Below, one piece after another: positions 1 through 7,785 of a stretch of DNA of 64,000 bases. The notes under the pieces are model-generated. The model was not told the origin of the DNA and ran no database searches. It saw nothing but the letters and a program-made list of their open reading frames with translations. Within the stretch, counting starts at the first letter, position 1. Each line of letters begins with the position of its first letter. The DNA is from Micromonospora rubida (GTDB taxonomy: Bacteria > Actinomycetota > Actinomycetes > Mycobacteriales > Micromonosporaceae): positions 558,001 to 622,000 of the forward strand of contig NZ_JAAALO010000001.1 in NCBI RefSeq assembly GCF_009908295.1. The letters are read 5' to 3'. The position numbers and the translations under genes are program-made.

Positions 1-217
1 GCTGCACACCAACCACACGGTGACCGGCAACCCGGACCGGTTCCGCACCGGGGCCACCGTCATCCGGGACCGCGACGACTCCTGGCGGCGCACCCTGTCC
101 CGGGCGGACCGGCTGGCCGCGACGGCCCTGGCCCAGCCGCTGTTCGCCCGCTACGGCTACCGGTCCGCCCCGCGCGGGGCGGACCGGGTGTCACCGACCA
201 GCGAATCAGGGAGGTAA
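1..217 (+). CDS. sulfotransferase family protein, C-terminal fragment (gene starts upstream of window)
   Basis: The reading frame is open from the first base and ends at TAA 215-217. The visible ~70 residues contain HTVTGNPDRFRTG followed by a WRRTLSRADR...LAQPLFARYGY ending. I recognise this as the C-terminal signature of actinobacterial PAPS-dependent sulfotransferases (HSVSGNPxRFR ... PLLxRYGY). The PAPS-binding P-loop would lie outside the window. The stop is 5 bp before the SDR start, and its last codons carry that gene's GGGAGG ribosome site, so it is the upstream member of the same operon. Sulfotransferases are known neighbours of natural-product encapsulins. Family call is fairly secure; substrate unknown. 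Confidence 0.72.
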   Translation, partial: LHTNHTVTGNPDRFRTGATVIRDRDDSWRRTLSRADRLAATALAQPLFARYGYRSAPRGADRVSPTSESGR

Positions 218-222
218 CGAGC

Positions 223-1050
223 GTGGATCTCGGGCTCAAGGGACGGGTGGTCCTCGTCGCGGGCGGGTCCAGCGGAATCGGGCTGGCCTGCGCGAAGGAG
301 TTCGCCGCCGAGGGCGCGCACGTGGCGATCTGCGGCCGCGACCCGGACCGGCTCGCCGCCGCCGAGCGGGAGCTGGCCGGGATGGCCGCCGGCCGGGTCA
401 GCGCCACCAGCGTGGACGTCACCGACACCGACGCGGCCCGCCGCTGGGTGGACGGGGTGGCCGCCGACCTCGGCGGGGCCCACGTCCTGCTGGTCAGCGG
501 CGGCAGCCCGCCGGTCGGCACGGCCGCGCTGTTCGAGGTGGCCGACTACCGGGCCGCCGTCGACCGGGTGTTGCTGCCGGCCGTGGGGCTGGCCCTGGCG
601 GCGCTGCCGCACCTGCGCACCGCCGGCTGGGGGCGGCTGCTCTTCGTCGCCTCCGAGACCGCGAGCGTGCCGATCGGCCCGCTGGTCCTCTCCGGGGTGA
701 CCCGGGCCGCGCTGGTCCGCTTCGCCCAGGGCCTCGCCGTCGACGTGGGCCGCGACGGGATCACCGTCAACGTGCTCGCCCCCGGCAGCGTGCGCACCCC
801 GCCGATGGAACGGGCCGCCGCGCGGCTGGCCGGCGACGGCGACGTCGAGGAGCAGCTCGCCGCCATGGGCCACCACAGCGCGCTGGGCCGGCTGGCCGAC
901 CCCGGGGAGGTCGCCGCCGTGGCCGCGTTCCTGGCCAGCGAGCGGGCCTCGTTCGTCACCGCGGGCGTGCACCTGATCGACGGCGGGGCCAGCGCCACCG
1001 GCCCGGAGCTGCCGCACCTGACCGGCGTCCGCAAGGACACCTACGCCTGA
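223..1050 (+). CDS. atypical short-chain dehydrogenase/reductase (SDR), catalytic Tyr and Lys replaced
   Basis: 275 residues, GTG start 5 bp after the sulfotransferase stop with GGGAGG upstream. The Rossmann dinucleotide motif AGGSSGIG lies at residues 13-20 and the typical TVNVLAPGSVRTPPM segment near 181-195, so the fold is a classical FabG-like SDR. The active-site region reads VASE (142-145) and then LSGVTRAAL: the positions of the YxxxK pair are Ser157 and Arg161, and NNAG is SGGS. It is either a non-canonical reductase, as known for a subgroup of FabG-like SDRs, or a cofactor-binding scaffold. It belongs to the encapsulin operon. Substrate unknown. Confidence 0.85.
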   Translation: MDLGLKGRVVLVAGGSSGIGLACAKEFAAEGAHVAICGRDPDRLAAAERELAGMAAGRVSATSVDVTDTDAARRWVDGVAADLGGAHVLLVSGGSPPVGTAALFEVADYRAAVDRVLLPAVGLALAALPHLRTAGWGRLLFVASETASVPIGPLVLSGVTRAALVRFAQGLAVDVGRDGITVNVLAPGSVRTPPMERAAARLAGDGDVEEQLAAMGHHSALGRLADPGEVAAVAAFLASERASFVTAGVHLIDGGASATGPELPHLTGVRKDTYA

Positions 1051-1111
1051 CCCCTCCCCCGACCCGGGCGGCGGCGACGCCGCCCGGCTGCACAGCACGA
1101 AGGAGTGCGCG

Positions 1112-1957
1112 ATGTCCACGACCAGCCCCACCTTCACCGAGCGGGACGTCTCCGAGTTCTTCGACGAGACCACCCAGACGTACCTCAGCTTCTGGGACAG
1201 CGAGGGCGTGCTGCACACCGGATACTTCGCCGACGACGCCGACACCGACTACCACGCCGCCGCCGACCGGACCTCCGACCTGCTCGCCACCGAGGCGGGC
1301 GTCGACGCCGGCTCGACCGTGCTGGACGTGGGCTGCGGCTGCGGCAACTTCCTGCTCCGGCTCGCCGGGCAGACCGGCTGCCGGGGCGAGGGGCTGGACC
1401 TGAGCATCGAGCGGATCCGGTTCGCCCAGGCCAAGTGCGCCGAGCGCGGGACGCCGGGGATCGCCTTCCGGCACGGGTCGGCCACCGCCCTGCCGTACTC
1501 CCCGGGCAGCTTCAGCCACGTGGTCAGCCAGGACGCGCTGTTCCTGGTGCCAGACAAGCCGCGCAGCCACGCCGAGATGCACCGGGTGCTCGCCCCCGGC
1601 GGGATCCTGGCGATCACCGACTTCCTCCAGCCGACCACCGAGATCGGCGAGGCCGCCCGCCGGCACGTCTACGACCGGGTGCGCTGGAGCAGCGGCTACT
1701 CCCTCGACGGGTACGCCGAGGCGCTGACCGGGGCCGGGTTCGAGGTGCTGGTCGCCCGCAACCTCGACGCGCACATCCGGCAGACGTACCGGGTGCTCGG
1801 CGAGACCGCCCGGCAGCGGGCCGCGTCCACCGACGACCCCACCGCCCGGGAGTGGATCCTCGGCTTCGCCGCGTCCTGCGGGGAGATCCAGGCCGCCATC
1901 GACCGGGGCGAGTTCGGCTGGGGCATGTTCGTCGCCCGCAAGCCCGCCGCGCAGTGA
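1112..1957 (+). CDS. class I SAM-dependent methyltransferase
   Basis: 281 residues, ATG start with AAGGAG 7 bp upstream. Motif I VLDVGCGCGNF (about 70-80) is followed by an acidic residue in GEGLDLS (motif II) and DALFLVPDK/HRVLAPGGILAITDF in the motif III-IV area, the layout of UbiE/small-molecule methyltransferases. The C-terminal part (YDRVRW...YAEALTGAGFEV) is usual for this fold. It would transfer a methyl group from SAM to a small substrate, probably the operon's product or an intermediate. It lies 61 bp after the SDR and 60 bp before the shell gene, all co-directional. N-, O- or C-specificity cannot be read from the sequence. Confidence 0.88.
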   Translation: MSTTSPTFTERDVSEFFDETTQTYLSFWDSEGVLHTGYFADDADTDYHAAADRTSDLLATEAGVDAGSTVLDVGCGCGNFLLRLAGQTGCRGEGLDLSIERIRFAQAKCAERGTPGIAFRHGSATALPYSPGSFSHVVSQDALFLVPDKPRSHAEMHRVLAPGGILAITDFLQPTTEIGEAARRHVYDRVRWSSGYSLDGYAEALTGAGFEVLVARNLDAHIRQTYRVLGETARQRAASTDDPTAREWILGFAASCGEIQAAIDRGEFGWGMFVARKPAAQ

Positions 1958-1997
1958 CCGTCCGACCAGTGATCCGCCGTGCGATGACCGTCCGACC
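1955..1997 (+). repeat. short direct repeat in the methyltransferase-shell spacer
   Basis: TGACCGTCCGACC occurs at 1955-1967 (overlapping the methyltransferase stop) and again at 1985-1997. The repeat fills most of the 60 bp spacer before the shell gene. It could be a slipped duplication or take part in mRNA structure. No function is evident. Confidence 0.6.
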
Positions 1998-2017
1998 CGA
2001 CCACGAGGTGTGAGGCC

Positions 2018-2893
2018 ATGCAACGAACCGACGTCATCAAGCGGACGATCGCCGAGGTCGTCGAGCACCGGAAGAAGCAGCTCTCGCCGGGGCAGGTCTT
2101 CGCCGACGCCTTCGCCGAGCAGGGCTTCGACACCTGCGTCGAGTACGACGTCACCATCACCGACTCGCTGACCAGTTCCCGGCGCAAGCCGCGCTACCCG
2201 TCGCGGAACGTGCTGAAGGTGGTGGACCTGTCCCGGGACCCGCAGGAGTTCTACTGGCACGAGAGCCGGGCCCTCCCGGACGACCCGGCGGTCGACGGCG
2301 CCGACCTGCGCCGGGAGGCGGCCAACCACTTCCACCGCTCCCCCATCCCGCCGCTGTTCACCACGAAGGCGTGGGTGCAGGTGCCGGACGGGCTGTGGGA
2401 CGACCCGACGAGCTTCGCGGAGTTCATCAACTACCGCCTCGTCGTGCGGCTGGCCACCGCCGAGAACGTCACCATCCTGCGCGGCGAGGGCGGGCTGCTG
2501 ACCATGCCGGAGATCGCCCGGCTCACCGACCCGGGCCCGTTCGGCTCCACCATCCTGTCCGCCTGCAACGAGGTGGAGCAGAACGGCAGCACCGCCGACG
2601 GGCTGATCATCAACCCGGCGGACTACTACCGGCTGCTCGGCTCCGGCACGCTGATGCGCGACGTCGAGGAGAACGGCGTGTTCATCGTCCGGACCCGGCT
2701 GGTCGACCCGGGCACCGCGATCGTCGGCGACTTCGGCCACGGCGCGCTGCTGTTCGACGCCGGCCGCTCGAAGATCGGTTTCGCCGAGCCGCCGCCCGGC
2801 ACGTTCGCCGACCCCGGCCTGGCGCTGACCGCCGAGATCTACGAGCGGGTGGTGCTCAACCTGCCCACCTGCTTCTTCGTCGTGAGCGTGTAG
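2018..2893 (+). CDS. HK97-fold capsid-like shell protein, probable natural-product (family 3) encapsulin
   Basis: 291 residues, ATG with GAGGTG upstream. The second half has the order seen in HK97 major capsid proteins and encapsulins: an FTTKAWVQVPDGLWDD strand/helix entry (114-129), a spine-helix-like AEFINYRLVVRLATAENVTILRGEG (134-158), the A-domain signature GLIINPADYYRLL (195-207), TRLVDPGTAIVGDFGHGALLFDAG (226-249), and a terminal EIYERVVLNLPTCFFVV strand (273-289). The N-terminal ~110 residues would form the N-arm and E-loop. No terminase, portal, protease or tail gene is nearby. Neighbours are instead a sulfotransferase, SDR, methyltransferase, flavin oxidase and racemase, matching the published context of family 3 encapsulins. 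Predicted to self-assemble into a protein compartment; size and cargo are unknown. A lone domesticated phage capsid is the alternative. Confidence 0.82.
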   Translation: MQRTDVIKRTIAEVVEHRKKQLSPGQVFADAFAEQGFDTCVEYDVTITDSLTSSRRKPRYPSRNVLKVVDLSRDPQEFYWHESRALPDDPAVDGADLRREAANHFHRSPIPPLFTTKAWVQVPDGLWDDPTSFAEFINYRLVVRLATAENVTILRGEGGLLTMPEIARLTDPGPFGSTILSACNEVEQNGSTADGLIINPADYYRLLGSGTLMRDVEENGVFIVRTRLVDPGTAIVGDFGHGALLFDAGRSKIGFAEPPPGTFADPGLALTAEIYERVVLNLPTCFFVVSV

Positions 2894-2903
2894 GGCGCGG
2901 GCA

Positions 2904-4256
2904 ATGTCGACGACGCCCGCGCCGCGCCCGAGCGGCGACGAACCCGCGCCGCGCCCGAGCGGCGACGAGCCCGACGTGCTGGTGGTCGGTGCGGGCATCG
3001 TCGGCCTGTTCTGCGCCTGGTTCCTGGCCCGCGACGGCCACCGGGTCACCGTCGTCGACCGGGGCGAGGTCGGCGACCCGGCGGCCTGCTCCTCGGGCAA
3101 CACCGGCTTCGTCGGCACCCAGGGCTCCGCGCCGCTCGCGGAGCCCGGCGTGCCGGCCAAGGGCCTGCGCTACCTGCTGAACCCGGAGAGCCCGTTCCAC
3201 ATCCGGCCCCGCTGGGATCCGGCCCTGCTCGCCTGGCTCTGGCACTTCCGCCGGGTCTGCACCGAACACGACGCCCGGGCCGCCTTCGACGTCCTGCTGT
3301 CGCTCAAGCAACGCAGCCTGGCCATCCTGCACGAGGTGTGCGCGGCGGGACCGCTCGCCGACACCCTCACCGCCCAGGGCATGCTGCTGGCCTGCAAGAC
3401 CCCGGAGGGCTTCGAGCAGGCCCGCCGCTCGGTGCCGGCGGCCGTCGCCCGGGGCGTGCCGCTGCGGGTGCTCGAACCCGGCGAGCTGGCCCGCCTCGAA
3501 CCGGGCGTCGAGTTCGACGTGGCCGGGGCGCTGCTCAACGCCGAGGGCGCCGCCCTGCGCATCCCGGCGTTCCTCGTCGAGTTCGCCCGGGTGCTGCGGG
3601 GCATGGGTGTGGACATCCGCACCCACACCGAGGTCCTCGACTTCGAGGTGGCCGGGGACCGGGTCCGGGCCGTGCGCACGAGCCGGGGGGACCTGCGCCC
3701 GGCCGAGGTGGTGATCGCCGCGGGGATCTGGTCCGTGGCCTGCGCCCGCAAGCTCGGCCTGGAACTGATGCTCCAGCCGGCGAAGGGCTACGCGGTCACC
3801 GTCGCCGCCCCGGAGACTCCGCCCCGGCTGCCGATCCTGCTCAGCGAGGGCAAGGTCGCCGTCATGCCGCTCGGCGACCGGCTGCGCCTCGCCGGCACCC
3901 TGGAGCTGACCGGAATGGACACCTCCGTCTCGCCCCGGCGGGTCGACGGCATCGCGCGCACCGTCCGGTCGTACCTGCCGGGGCTGGACACCGACCGCCG
4001 GGTGCAGGTGTGGAGCGGGCTGCGCCCCTGCACCCCGGACAGCCTGCCGCTGCTCGGCCGCGCCGGGGCGTACCGGAACGTCTGCGTGGCCGCCGGGCAC
4101 GGCCACATCGGGATGGGCCTGGCGCCGGCCGGGGGGCGGCTGATCGCCCAGCTCGTCGGCGGCGTCCGCCCGGAGCTGGACCTGGCCCCCTTCGCCGTGG
4201 ACCGCTGGCGGCGCCGCTTCCCGCGCCGCCGCCCGACCCCTGGGAGTACGCGATGA
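2904..4256 (+). CDS. FAD-dependent oxidoreductase, D-amino-acid dehydrogenase/oxidase type, with duplicated N-terminal tag
   Basis: 450 residues. The DVLVVGAGIVG dinucleotide-binding motif starts at residue 24, followed by an acidic residue after VTVVD and SSGNTGFVGTQGSAPLAEPG, which resembles DadA-type D-amino-acid dehydrogenases. The C-terminal VWSGLRPCTPDSLPLLGRA and GHGHIGMGLAPAGGRL segments are the second FAD contact of this family. Residues 5-13 (PAPRPSGDE) are repeated exactly at 14-22; this flexible, proline-rich extension precedes the fold and is a candidate shell-targeting tag (inference). A GTG at 2976 would exclude it. The stop overlaps the racemase ATG (ATGA), so the two are probably translationally coupled. 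Likely reaction: oxidation of a D-amino acid or secondary amine. Confidence 0.87.
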   Translation: MSTTPAPRPSGDEPAPRPSGDEPDVLVVGAGIVGLFCAWFLARDGHRVTVVDRGEVGDPAACSSGNTGFVGTQGSAPLAEPGVPAKGLRYLLNPESPFHIRPRWDPALLAWLWHFRRVCTEHDARAAFDVLLSLKQRSLAILHEVCAAGPLADTLTAQGMLLACKTPEGFEQARRSVPAAVARGVPLRVLEPGELARLEPGVEFDVAGALLNAEGAALRIPAFLVEFARVLRGMGVDIRTHTEVLDFEVAGDRVRAVRTSRGDLRPAEVVIAAGIWSVACARKLGLELMLQPAKGYAVTVAAPETPPRLPILLSEGKVAVMPLGDRLRLAGTLELTGMDTSVSPRRVDGIARTVRSYLPGLDTDRRVQVWSGLRPCTPDSLPLLGRAGAYRNVCVAAGHGHIGMGLAPAGGRLIAQLVGGVRPELDLAPFAVDRWRRRFPRRRPTPGSTR

Positions 4257-4954
4257 CCGACGACGCCCCGATCGGGGTGCTCTGCCTGGACACCTCGTTC
4301 GAGAAGATCCCCGGGCACATCCGCAACCCGGCCACCTTCGACTTCCCGGTGCGCTACCGGGTGGTCGAGGGGGCGACGCCGCAGCGCCTGGTCCGCGAGG
4401 CCGACCCGACGCTGCTGGAGCCGTTCATCGCGGCGGCGAAGGACCTGGAGGCCGCCGGGGTCGCCGGCATCACCGGCGCGTGCGGCTTCCTGGTGCTGTT
4501 CCAGGCCGAGCTGGCCGCCGCCGTGTCGGTGCCGCTGTGGTCGTCCAGCCTGGTCCAGCTCCCGATGGTGCACCGGATGGTCGGGCGGCCGGTCGGGCTG
4601 CTGGTCGCCGACGAGAACGCGCTGACCCCCCGCCACCTCGCCGCGATCGGCGCGGAGTCGGTGCCGGTGCGGGTCACCGGCATGGCCGGCCAGCCGGAGT
4701 TCCGCGAGGTGATGCTGGAGGGCCGCCGCGACGCCCTCGACGCCGACCGCCTCGGCCGGGAGGTCCTCGACCGCGTCGACCGACTCGTCGAGGCGCACCC
4801 GGACCTGGGCGCGCTGGTTATCGAGTGCACGGACCTGGTGCCGTTCGCGCACGCGATCCAGGCCCGGCTGGGGCTCCCGGTCTTCGACATCGTCACCCTC
4901 ACCACGATGCTGCACGCCACACTCACCCGCCGCCCCTACCCCCACCACCCCTGA
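4253..4954 (+). CDS. aspartate/glutamate racemase family protein
   Basis: 233 residues, ATG overlapping the oxidoreductase stop. Both expected catalytic cysteines are present: Cys77 in ITGACGFL and Cys192 in VIECTDLVPFA. The architecture is two similar alpha/beta halves as in the Asp/Glu/hydantoin racemase superfamily. PLP-independent racemases abstract the alpha proton with this Cys pair. Coupled to a D-amino-acid-oxidase-like gene, it could supply a D-enantiomer, or act as a decarboxylase or isomerase, which are alternatives in this superfamily. It is the last gene of the operon; a strong hairpin follows. Confidence 0.86.
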   Translation: MTDDAPIGVLCLDTSFEKIPGHIRNPATFDFPVRYRVVEGATPQRLVREADPTLLEPFIAAAKDLEAAGVAGITGACGFLVLFQAELAAAVSVPLWSSSLVQLPMVHRMVGRPVGLLVADENALTPRHLAAIGAESVPVRVTGMAGQPEFREVMLEGRRDALDADRLGREVLDRVDRLVEAHPDLGALVIECTDLVPFAHAIQARLGLPVFDIVTLTTMLHATLTRRPYPHHP

Positions 4955-5077
4955 CCCACACCTCCGCACCCCACACCCCACACCCCACACCCCCACACCT
5001 CCGCACCCCGCACCTCCGCACCTCCGCGCCCTGCGCCTCCGCGCCTCCGCACCTCCGCGCCCTGCGCCTGCTCGCAA

Positions 5078-5129
5078 TTTCACGGAAAGAGTGGTCATTC
5101 CGGCCGAGATGGCCACTCTTTCCGTGAAA
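5078..5129. terminator. bidirectional terminator-like hairpin
   Basis: Left arm 5078-5097 (TTTCACGGAAAGAGTGGTCA) pairs with 5110-5129 over 20 bp with a single G-T pair; the loop is 12 nt. It sits between convergent genes and can fold on either transcript. Actinobacterial terminators often lack a U tract, so stem strength and position are the support. Confidence 0.75.
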
Positions 5130-5131
5130 GA

Positions 5132-5330
5132 GCGGGCGGGCGGCGGGCGGCGGGCGAGCGGCGGGGCGGCGGGCGAGCGGGCGGGCGGGCGAGCGGGCGG
5201 GCGGGCGAGCGGGCGAGCGGGCGGGCGGGCGAGCGGGCGGGCAGGTGGGCAAGCGGGCGAGCGGGCGGGCGGGCGGGCAGGTGGGCAAGCGGGCGAGCGG
5301 GCGAGCGGGCGGACAGGTGGGCTGGCTGGA
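5132..5330 (+). repeat. G-rich low-complexity tandem repeat
   Basis: About 200 bp of GGGCGGGC/GAGCGGGC units with a longer internal duplication of GCGGGCGGGCAGGTGGGCAA near 5233 and 5267. The plus strand has many closely spaced G-runs and could form G-quadruplexes. The 3' end of the minus-strand synthetase mRNA would read the C-rich strand here. Confidence 0.75.
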
Positions 5331-5349
5331 CCCGCCGCGGCATGCGGGG

Positions 5350-7785
5350 TCAGGGACGGTGGGCGTACGGGGCGATGGGGTTGGCAAGGGTACCGGCGAA
5401 CTGGAGCGCCGCCGACGGGTCGGACAGGTCCACCATCTGCTCGTTGTTGCGCAGCTGGAGCCGGTTGAGGCAGGAGTGCGCGAACTCCGGGGCGAACAGG
5501 TCGTACCGGCGCAGCCGGTCGGCCAGGTGCGGCACCCGGCCGGCGTAGTCGGCCGCGCAGTCGGCGACCATGCGCCAGAACTCCTCCTCGGTGAGCAGCC
5601 CCGCGTCGGTGAACACGACGTTGAGGTGGCGCAGGAAGCAGGAGAACACGTCGGTGAAGATCGACAGCAGCTTCTCGTCCTCGGGGATGGCGGCCCGGAC
5701 GCGGTGCACCGCCTCGGGCAGGTCGGCGTCCGGGTCCATCACCACGATCTCCTCGGCGATGTCCTTAAAGATTGCCCGCTGCACCGCCCCGCCGCGCAGC
5801 ACCAGGATGACGTTCTCGCCGTGCGGCATGAACGCCAGGTCGTACGCGTAGAGGGAGTGCAGCAGCGGGACGAGGTACGCGTCGAGGTACTGGCGCAGCC
5901 AGGCCCCCGCCGGCAGGCCCGACTCGGCGACCAGCGCGGCGGCGAACGACTCGCCGGCCGAGTCGACGTGCAGCAGCGACGCCATGGTGGCCAGCCGACA
6001 CCCCGGCTCCAGACCGGGGACGGGGCTTTCCCGCCACAGCGCCGCCAGCATCTTCCGGTACGGGGAGTACCGGTCGGTTGCCGCCTCGAACCGGCGGTTG
6101 CGGTACCCGATCGCGGCCCGCTCCCGGATGATCGTCAGCCCGGTGGCCCGAAGCACCTCGTCGCGCTCGATCAGGTCGGCGAGCCAGTCGTTGATGGCCG
6201 GGGTGGCCTCCATGTACGCCGCCGACAGCCCTCGGATGAAGCCCATGTTCAGCACGGACAGCGCGGTCTTGACGTAGTGCCGTTCGGGGCGGGTGACGTT
6301 GAAGAAGGTGCGCACGGACTGTTGGGGAAGGTACTCGTCCGGGCCTGGGCCGACCAGGACGAGGCGGCGCTCGGCCACGTCGGCGGCGAACGTGACGGCG
6401 AGCCGGTTCCACCACTGCCACGGGTGCACGGGGATGAACAGGTAGTCGGCCGGGTCGAGTCCGAGCCTGGTCAGCGTGGCGGCGAAGCCGGCCAGCGCGT
6501 CCTCGCCCAGCTCCTCGCGCAGCAGGGCGTCGGCGTCGGTGTCCGTGGAGCAGGTGAAGGTGGTGTGGTCGCGGTGCGCGGCCAGCCAGAGCAGCCGCAC
6601 GGGCCGGCCGACCTCCGGGGCGTACCGGTGGTATTCGTCGATGCCGAAGCCGATCCGGCCGTTGTTGGCGACGAAGCCCGGGTGGCCCTCGGTCATCCGG
6701 GTCTCGATGGTCTGGAAGTCGGCGCGGGCCAGTTCGGCGGCGCCGATCTCCGGCCGGTCCAGCTTGTACGCCCACCCGGCCAGCGTGGAGGTGATCTCCT
6801 CCAGGTACACGGGCAGCACCCGGTCGGTGAGGCCGAGCGCGCCGCGCAGCTCCACGCACAGGTCGAGGGCGTCCAGGGGCAGCTCCGCGCCGTCGCGGCG
6901 GCGGGTGATGCTGTCCGGGTCGATCCGCCAGTGGTCGAGGGCGAGCCGGCGGGCGGCGAACCGGTAGGTCACCGTGCCGTCGTCGCTGGCCACCTCGTAC
7001 TCGGCCGGCTCACCGGGGGCGGGGGTGACGGGCTCGGGGGTGACGGGCTCGGGGGTGACGGGCTCGGGGGTGACGGGCTCGGGGGTGAGCAGCCGCTCGT
7101 GGGCGAACTCGGCGAGCGCCTTGCGGACCAGCAGCCGGTTGGCCCGCGCCCAGGTGTCGGGGGTGAGGTGGGCGACGGCGTCCTGGGGGTCCACGGTGGT
7201 CGGTCCTTCGCTGCTGGTCGGGGCCGGGCCGGTGGCGGCGGCGAACTGGGCGCGGGTGCAGAAGCTGAGCAGGGCCGTCTTGGCGGGCAGGGCGAGGGGC
7301 CCGGCGGGGACGAAGCCGACGGCCGCGTTCAGCGCGTGTACGGCGGTGTTGCGCACGTCCGGCTCGACCACCACCCGGCGGTGCGCCGGGTCGGCGAACA
7401 GCCAGTCCATGACGGTGGTGATGACGGCCCGGGTGAAGCCGGAGACCGGGGTGTCGGCGGGCGCGCAGAGGAAGTGCATGCCGACGTCGCCGGGGCGGGC
7501 CGGGTAGCGGCCGGCCAGCTCGACCCGCGCCGGGTCGTACCGCTCGACGAGGAAGGCCGGCTCGCCCCGCCACAGCCCGACGAACGCGTCGTGGTGCTCC
7601 TCGGCGGCGATGCGCGCGTACTCGGCGGCGACCCGGGCCAGGTCGGCGTCGGCCATCAGCCAGAACGCGGCCTTCGGGTGGGTCACCCAGGAGTGCAGCA
7701 GCGCGGCGTCGGCGACCGGGTCGAGGGTACGCAGGGCGAAGTCGCCCAGCCGTGGGTCGGTGCGGGTGTGCACGACCTCGGTCAC
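5350..7785 (-). CDS. fused GNAT acyltransferase-IucA/IucC siderophore synthetase (DesC-DesD-like)
   Basis: 811 residues, GTG start overlapping the hydroxylase stop (GTGA). Residues 1-180 are a GNAT-like acyltransferase of the RhbD/IucB/DesC type ([24 protein letters not shown]). The rest is an NRPS-independent siderophore synthetase with [14 protein letters not shown] and PVHPWQWWN, the ATP/substrate motifs of IucA/IucC. Streptomyces carries these as separate desC and desD, so this is a fusion. Residues 234-255 hold four PEPVT repeats (15 bp unit) inside the N-terminal part of the synthetase. Expected role: acylate N-hydroxycadaverine, then condense the hydroxamates ATP-dependently into a desferrioxamine-like product. 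Last gene of the iron-regulated minus-strand operon. Confidence 0.92.

Follow-up and report, generated by a model that had tools for sequence, protein, structure and literature searches.

Introduction

Family 3 (natural product) encapsulins were defined by Andreas and Giessen (2021, PMC8346489) on the basis of 132 systems falling into six classes, and the main text of that survey suggests that their shells confine reactive aldehydes or ketones. It reports no solved family 3 structure at that time, treats the role of these shells as open, and gives the shell of the chloromyxamide cluster of Myxococcus sp. MCy10608 as belonging to the only family 3 cluster studied experimentally. Nonribosomal peptide synthetases (NRPS), polyketide synthases (PKS) or an amino-group carrier protein are described there as common companions of family 3 shells that are not required. 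Here, we describe an operon of this kind from Micromonospora rubida, found in a stretch of 64,000 nucleotides (GCF_009908295.1, contig NZ_JAAALO010000001.1, positions 558,001 to 622,000 of the forward strand), which is referred to as the window. The operon is a further member of the known family 3 kind that is well bounded and comes with a testable cargo hypothesis, and we consider it quite probable that its eight genes form a self-contained unit around a family 3 encapsulin shell holding at least one of the operon's enzymes.

The operon resembles the surveyed systems, as the main text of PMC8346489 presents them, in a shell protein scoring above the NCBIfam equivalog cut-off, in its sulfotransferase and short-chain dehydrogenase/reductase (SDR) neighbours and in its actinobacterial host; a biosynthetic neighbourhood with sulfotransferase and SDR is thus present in the eight-gene set. 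It differs from the description given there in having a DegT aminotransferase, a DAO-family oxidase and a racemase-like protein, and no NRPS, PKS or amino-group carrier protein was found among the eight operon genes. Its likeness to the chloromyxamide system, whose product contains a modified amino acid, is one of description (PMC8346489) and not of sequence, and that system differs in making chlorinated pipecolic-acid-containing peptides. The words 'Micromonospora' and 'racemase' do not occur in the main text of PMC8346489. Likewise, no literature joining 'encapsulin' with 'Micromonospora' was found in a search that left most subscription papers outside, and later work may exist.

Shell protein and its relation to phage capsids

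An earlier reading of the window, made from sequence only, had placed a probable family 3 encapsulin among biosynthetic genes. The open reading frame (ORF) in question lies exactly where that reading put it (2018–2893, + strand, 291 aa), the quoted peptides included, and we regard its identity as a family 3 encapsulin as practically beyond doubt. The protein scored 314.3 bits with the NCBIfam model NF041188 (encap_f3, equivalog; cut-off 180), and the match spans model positions 1–266 of 266. By comparison with general phage models the signal was faint: Pfam Phage_capsid gave 18.3 bits, under its cut-off of 24.2, and a PHROGs search of the shell protein returned no match. A single-sequence search of the PDB reached HK97 gp5 at E ~1e-3, and a profile of eight family 3 shells (A2) reached it at E 7.5e-18, with family 1 encapsulins appearing faintly at E >= 0.05; no family 3 shell structure was among the matches of the A2 search in the 2026 PDB copy.

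The homology to HK97-type phage major capsid proteins, represented by Microbacterium phages and HK97 gp5, covers shell residues 79–291, and the predicted fold is the same. A tblastn search with the shell protein returned 196 phage records at E <= 0.1 (E down to 5e-8), all below 60% identity and none covering at least 80% of the protein, the best-ranked rows being Microbacterium phage capsids of about 29–30% identity. Each of 84 viral-contig loci contained a capsid-like ORF that the A2 profile matched, with E-values from 3e-23 to 3.5e-6, which were computed for a small set of a few hundred ORFs from these loci. The 84 loci represent 83 contigs (L139 and L218 are one), several of them near copies, and having been fetched with phage capsid queries they are evidence of homology and no census. 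Profile-profile comparison of the family 3 shells with seven capsids from these loci gave 98.7% probability. A first scan of viral contigs with the family alignment had yielded 54 candidate stretches with no confirmed relative among them, and a phage capsid query later reached relatives. The plasmid search returned only five Klebsiella records, each bearing a phage capsid gene.

Structure prediction, which the earlier reading had named as a check, gave an HK97 fold, from an alignment that consists mostly of phage capsids (A4, 64 rows: 8 shells and 56 phage capsids). The model had a mean predicted local distance difference test score (pLDDT) of 72.9 and a predicted template modelling score (pTM) of 0.70, with residues 2–19, 46–75 and 93–101 below 50. 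Foldseek placed HK97 prohead I on top (E 2.3e-14), and VIA-align superposed the model on it with Z 19.2 and 3.1 A over 231 residues. With family 1 and 2 encapsulins Z was about 13–16. An encapsulin-only alignment (A1, seven close shells including that of the window) gave an uninformative model with pLDDT 37.2, which was discarded. Given the bias of the A4 alignment towards phage capsids, the fold model is supporting evidence only, and the profile results are independent of it.

Organization, distribution and linkage of the operon

The genes are arranged in the order DegT aminotransferase, major facilitator superfamily (MFS) transporter, sulfotransferase, SDR, methyltransferase, encapsulin, flavin adenine dinucleotide (FAD)-dependent amine oxidase and Asp/Glu racemase-like protein. 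The earlier reading had listed six of them, from the sulfotransferase to the racemase-like gene, and all six are there; its count of six gave way to eight once the part of the operon cut off by the window edge at the 5' end was recovered from the upstream DNA (L002). Only the 3' end of the sulfotransferase gene is in the window (1–217, +; stop codon at 215–217, start codon ~736 bp before the window), and the whole protein has 317 aa and matches Sulfotransfer_3 with 34.7 bits (cut-off 27). Upstream of it are the MFS transporter (401 aa) and the DegT-family aminotransferase (463 aa, counted from a start codon picked by comparison), with overlapping stop and start codons, and the next gene-like ORF beyond the aminotransferase, as seen by eye among the upstream ORFs, is on the opposite strand. 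The remaining genes, with families from domain searches for the neighbours of the shell gene, are co-directional with short gaps: the SDR (223–1050, +, 275 aa), an S-adenosylmethionine (SAM)-dependent methyltransferase (1112–1957, +, 281 aa), the shell gene, an FAD-dependent amine/D-amino-acid oxidase or dehydrogenase of the DAO family (2904–4256, +, 450 aa) and an Asp/Glu/hydantoin racemase-family protein (NF005679; 4253–4954, +, 233 aa). From the SDR onwards the spacing is 61, 60 and 10 bp, followed by a 4-bp overlap. Cys77 and Cys192 of the racemase-like protein look, by motif, like the pair that we take to be catalytic in its family.

The encap_f3 model scored above its cut-off in 40 of 160 Micromonospora genomes, in 55 of 350 genomes of a family sample that overlaps the genus set, and in 9 of 394 genomes of a class sample; matches below the cut-off (in the genus, genome G134 and second matches in G054 and G099) were excluded, and one such sub-cut-off locus (L080) showed no shell gene on fetching. 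The 40 genus genomes comprise 23 with the operon type of the window (type M), 11 with a second type (CAR type), one of whose loci is a truncated contig, and 6 with others. Four further type M loci were found outside the genus, in three families, one being Micromonospora's own. In the shell tree type M forms one clade of 27 rows with support 100/100, which is independent of the join between two of the three groups that carries a long-branch warning.

Apart from the window, 26 type M loci were compared, and in 23 of them the full set of eight genes keeps its order and strand, a conservation that exceeds chance; we are highly confident that the eight genes are one functional operon. In L039 (the same sequence as L073) and L116 the aminotransferase is absent at a contig end, and L038 (the same sequence as L074) has its methyltransferase distributed over different frames. 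L126, from another family of the order, is a type M operon in which the shell gene follows the SDR gene without an intervening methyltransferase gene. The DNA flanking the type M loci fell into 11 groups among 25 loci upstream and 11 groups among 26 loci downstream (L073 and L116 dropped upstream for short contigs, L116 downstream); these counts are upper bounds on the number of genomic sites, as diverged flanks also separate. Thus, the operon appears to have moved as a block.

Genome-wide linkage searches covered the methyltransferase, racemase, SDR and sulfotransferase, and scored the best first-look candidates of each genome (17 for the racemase, 15 for the methyltransferase, 15 in the genus and 6 in the class for the SDR, 14 for the sulfotransferase), a depth at which distant paralogs may be missed. 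The methyltransferase (E <= 1e-60) was found in 23 of 160 genus genomes, once as a fragment, and the racemase (E <= 1e-30) in 24, of which 23 showed 79–100% identity; close orthologs of both occur in exactly the 23 genomes with a type M shell. The remaining racemase homolog (G141:C1:6922739-6923416, 39% identity) belongs to a genome without a family 3 shell match. The SDR (E <= 1e-35) was found in 29 genus genomes, 23 with type M and 6 with other types, each time within ~2 kb of an encap_f3 gene when positions were compared by eye, and sulfotransferase matches of at least 200 bits were confined to the same 29; the next sulfotransferase matches (<= 154 bits) are widespread, E <= 1e-20 being reached in 71 of 160 genomes. 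In the class sample, SDR matches of at least 200 bits occurred in 8 genomes, all of them shell-positive, the ninth shell-positive genome being of the CAR type, and the next matches (<= 162 bits) were mostly in shell-less genomes.

An atypical SDR with a conserved C-terminal tail

Alignment of the operon SDR with sorbose reductase (3ai3) puts Ser157 and Arg161 in place of the catalytic Tyr and Lys, so that the YxxxK motif of classical SDRs is replaced by SxxxR. The same SxxxR was found in 42 of 42 aligned encapsulin-linked SDRs (27 of type M including the window, 15 of other types), and YSTSK stands at this site in the only control, an ordinary SDR encoded in the same genome. SxxxR also occurs in two sister SDRs (L137, L138) whose genomes gave no shell match; therefore, the motif is not peculiar to shell-linked SDRs. 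Two homologous solved SDRs, 2z1n and 1o5i, carry Ser/Arg for Tyr/Lys as well, but their alignments end at the SDR core, before the tail of the operon SDR, and we know of no shell linkage and no reaction for either. A literature search on SxxxR SDRs found nothing relevant among the papers that it listed.

All 23 type M SDRs of the genus have, past the last SDR motif, a tail of ~18 residues (258–275; consensus ATGPxLPHLTGVRKDTYA); of the four from outside the genus, three have a recognisable version and one a diverged version. The majority residue accounts for a mean fraction of 0.96 in the tail and 0.92 in the SDR body, and by the same measure, with 16 to 23 rows per protein, the last 18 residues reach 0.66 in the aminotransferase, 0.50 in the sulfotransferase, 0.79 in the oxidase, 0.74 in the racemase and 0.64 in the MFS protein. 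Judged from these alignments, the tail is the best candidate for a cargo-loading signal that we found. Two other candidates fell away: the N-terminal tail of the oxidase (repeat-like PAPRPSGDE) differs between species and was ruled out as a loading peptide, and no tail common to all family 3-linked SDRs or sulfotransferases was seen across types.

Proposed role of the shell and alternative explanations

We propose that the 291-residue protein would assemble into an icosahedral shell in which at least one operon enzyme may act on a reactive intermediate, either a carbonyl or an imine. The aminotransferase and the SDR would set the amine/carbonyl state, the oxidase and the racemase-like protein may act at an amine-bearing centre, capping of the product would fall to the methyltransferase and the sulfotransferase, and the MFS protein would be the exporter of a small amino compound that is both sulfated and methylated. 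We favour such a compound, partly made inside the shell, as the product because a carbonyl-handling enzyme and a sulfotransferase recur beside the shell, which is the theme of the family 3 contexts examined. The nearest solved relatives are sugar and cyclitol aminotransferases for the aminotransferase (best, 8-amino-Kdo transaminase), MitM and a D-glucose O-methyltransferase for the methyltransferase, the glycine oxidase family for the oxidase and, weakly, hydantoin racemase for the racemase-like protein. The earlier proposal that the compartment houses steps of an amino-acid-derived pathway is consistent with the gene content, the substrate class being a guess from enzyme families. That the shell holds some operon enzyme is likely in our judgement, and the SDR is the best single guess, albeit a tentative one, as to which; it is doubtful that the SDR tail is the docking signal in type M, and the full proposal, a family 3 shell with a dedicated SxxxR dehydrogenase-like cargo loaded through its own C-terminal peptide, is rather unlikely to hold in every part. 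If it were true, family 3 would gain, as far as literature searches show, its first assigned cargo and its first loading signal, and the reaction served by the shell would be that of an atypical SDR and not ordinary ketone reduction ahead of sulfation.

Several observations weigh against this proposal. Cargo, product and particle assembly are here predictions from sequence and model, and the good model depends on an alignment with phage capsids in 56 of its 64 rows, whereas that built from encapsulins only reached pLDDT 37.2. The sister CAR-type shell, which accounts for 11 of the 40 family 3 genus genomes, has no such SDR. The last 18 residues of the methyltransferase come close to the tail in conservation (0.93) and those of the shell reach 0.95, and among the 257 other 18-residue stretches of the SDR, 57 equal or exceed the tail by this measure; conservation alone therefore does not single out the tail, which could be structural. 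Moreover, none of the 15 SDRs of other types and neither of the two sister SDRs has the tail, so it is confined to type M and is no family-wide loading signal.

The capsid homology described above, with its 196 tblastn records, would also suit a prophage remnant, that is, a decayed phage's capsid gene that happens to sit within an enzyme operon, but we consider it exceedingly improbable. A neighbourhood free of phage genes is also a filter used in PMC8346489. The earlier reading had noted no phage packaging or tail genes nearby, and the wider searches agree: no phage structural gene was seen by eye in the filtered ORF list for the 18 kb upstream, whole-genome searches with Phage_portal and Phage_capsid gave no match at E <= 0.001 (control genomes were positive in 4 of 14 cases for each), and a PHROGs scan of the seven other operon proteins gave no phage structural family, its matches being to aminotransferases, methyltransferases, FabG-like proteins and families of unknown function, with some of the proteins having no match. 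In the Lahqtemish phage, by contrast, portal, protease and tail genes, all lacking in the encapsulin operon, stand beside the capsid gene, whose product has 395 aa against 291 aa for the shell. The shell gene is under purifying selection, with a median ratio of nonsynonymous to synonymous substitution rates (dN/dS) of 0.41 in 22 comparisons with orthologs of the genus; shell and operon enzymes co-occur in 23 of 160 genomes; and no phage record spans at least 80% of the shell protein.

A more serious alternative is that the shell, though real, leaves the operon enzymes outside, serving as a surface scaffold, for storage or sequestration of a product or metal, or in a role unrelated to the pathway. 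The missing common tail motif among family 3-linked SDRs and sulfotransferases of different types would fit this, and the main text of PMC8346489 calls the role of the studied shell unknown and active encapsulation a suggestion only. However, in 160 genomes the type M shell was never found apart from the methyltransferase, racemase and SDR, and close orthologs of these three were never found apart from the shell, which suggests that the shell is directly involved, and we hold the non-enclosing alternative to be rather unlikely. Another possibility, to which we give still less weight, is that the flavin oxidase and not the SDR is the main cargo, confinement serving to contain hydrogen peroxide or a reactive imine. 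The oxidase gene lies immediately 3' of the shell gene, with a 10-bp gap in the window, and all 26 other type M loci carry it; the DAO family comprises both oxidases and dehydrogenases; and distant DAO-family proteins (26–32% identity) lie near six CAR-type loci (L041, L048, L109–L111, L127). Against this, the N-terminal extension of the oxidase is freely variable, with its first 18 residues conserved at 0.63, and 20 tested loci of other family 3 types had no close homolog (tblastn E <= 1e-10). The operon narrows the cargo question to a few enzymes and a named candidate peptide, and, being short, complete, repeatedly conserved and free of giant synthetases, it is practical for expression as a whole. 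The 'SDR then sulfotransferase' proposal in the main text of PMC8346489 must in any case accommodate an SDR in which the classical catalytic Tyr and Lys are missing.

Other family 3 contexts and neighbouring genes

The CAR type (L041–L050, L108–L112, L127) is a second family 3 type in Micromonospora and its relatives, of which L108 was annotated and the other loci were placed by shell clade and partly by gene layout. Its shells form the sister clade and are 37–50% identical to that of the window. Like type M, L108 has a sulfotransferase and an MFS gene, which there adjoin the shell gene, but the sulfotransferase belongs to Sulfotransfer_5 and not Sulfotransfer_3, and an adenylation-thiolation-reductase protein and an aldo/keto reductase stand instead of the SDR. 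A different family 3 cluster (L113, 4210–14309) has lysine-type carrier-pathway genes, including a LysX-like ATP-grasp protein, a semialdehyde dehydrogenase, an amino acid kinase-M20 fusion and a split transketolase; PAPS-reductase-domain and EF-Tu-like GTPase genes, which we take to provide sulfate activation, adjoin its sulfotransferase and SDR. L118, L119 and L120 are divergent, with aminotransferase, sulfotransferase and SDR on one strand and the shell on the other, and in L118 ATP-grasp, AMP-binding and MFS genes come after the shell gene.

Downstream of the operon in the window, a convergent siderophore-type IucA/IucC gene runs from 7785 to 5350 (-). Its 811-aa protein (5350–7785) combines a GNAT acetyltransferase domain with an IucA/IucC siderophore synthetase through a repeated TPEPV linker, and we presume that it may be a fused DesC-DesD-like protein. 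Between the convergent operons lies a long inverted repeat (5058–5149) with 46-nt arms that are 80% complementary, possibly the shared terminator of both, and positions 5149–5340 hold GC-rich imperfect tandem repeats that by eye are GGGCGAGC-like. In the DNA upstream of the window, L002 6110–10729 (-) encodes, as read from its sequence, a hybrid histidine kinase-like protein of 1539 aa with many near-identical repeats of ~90 residues.

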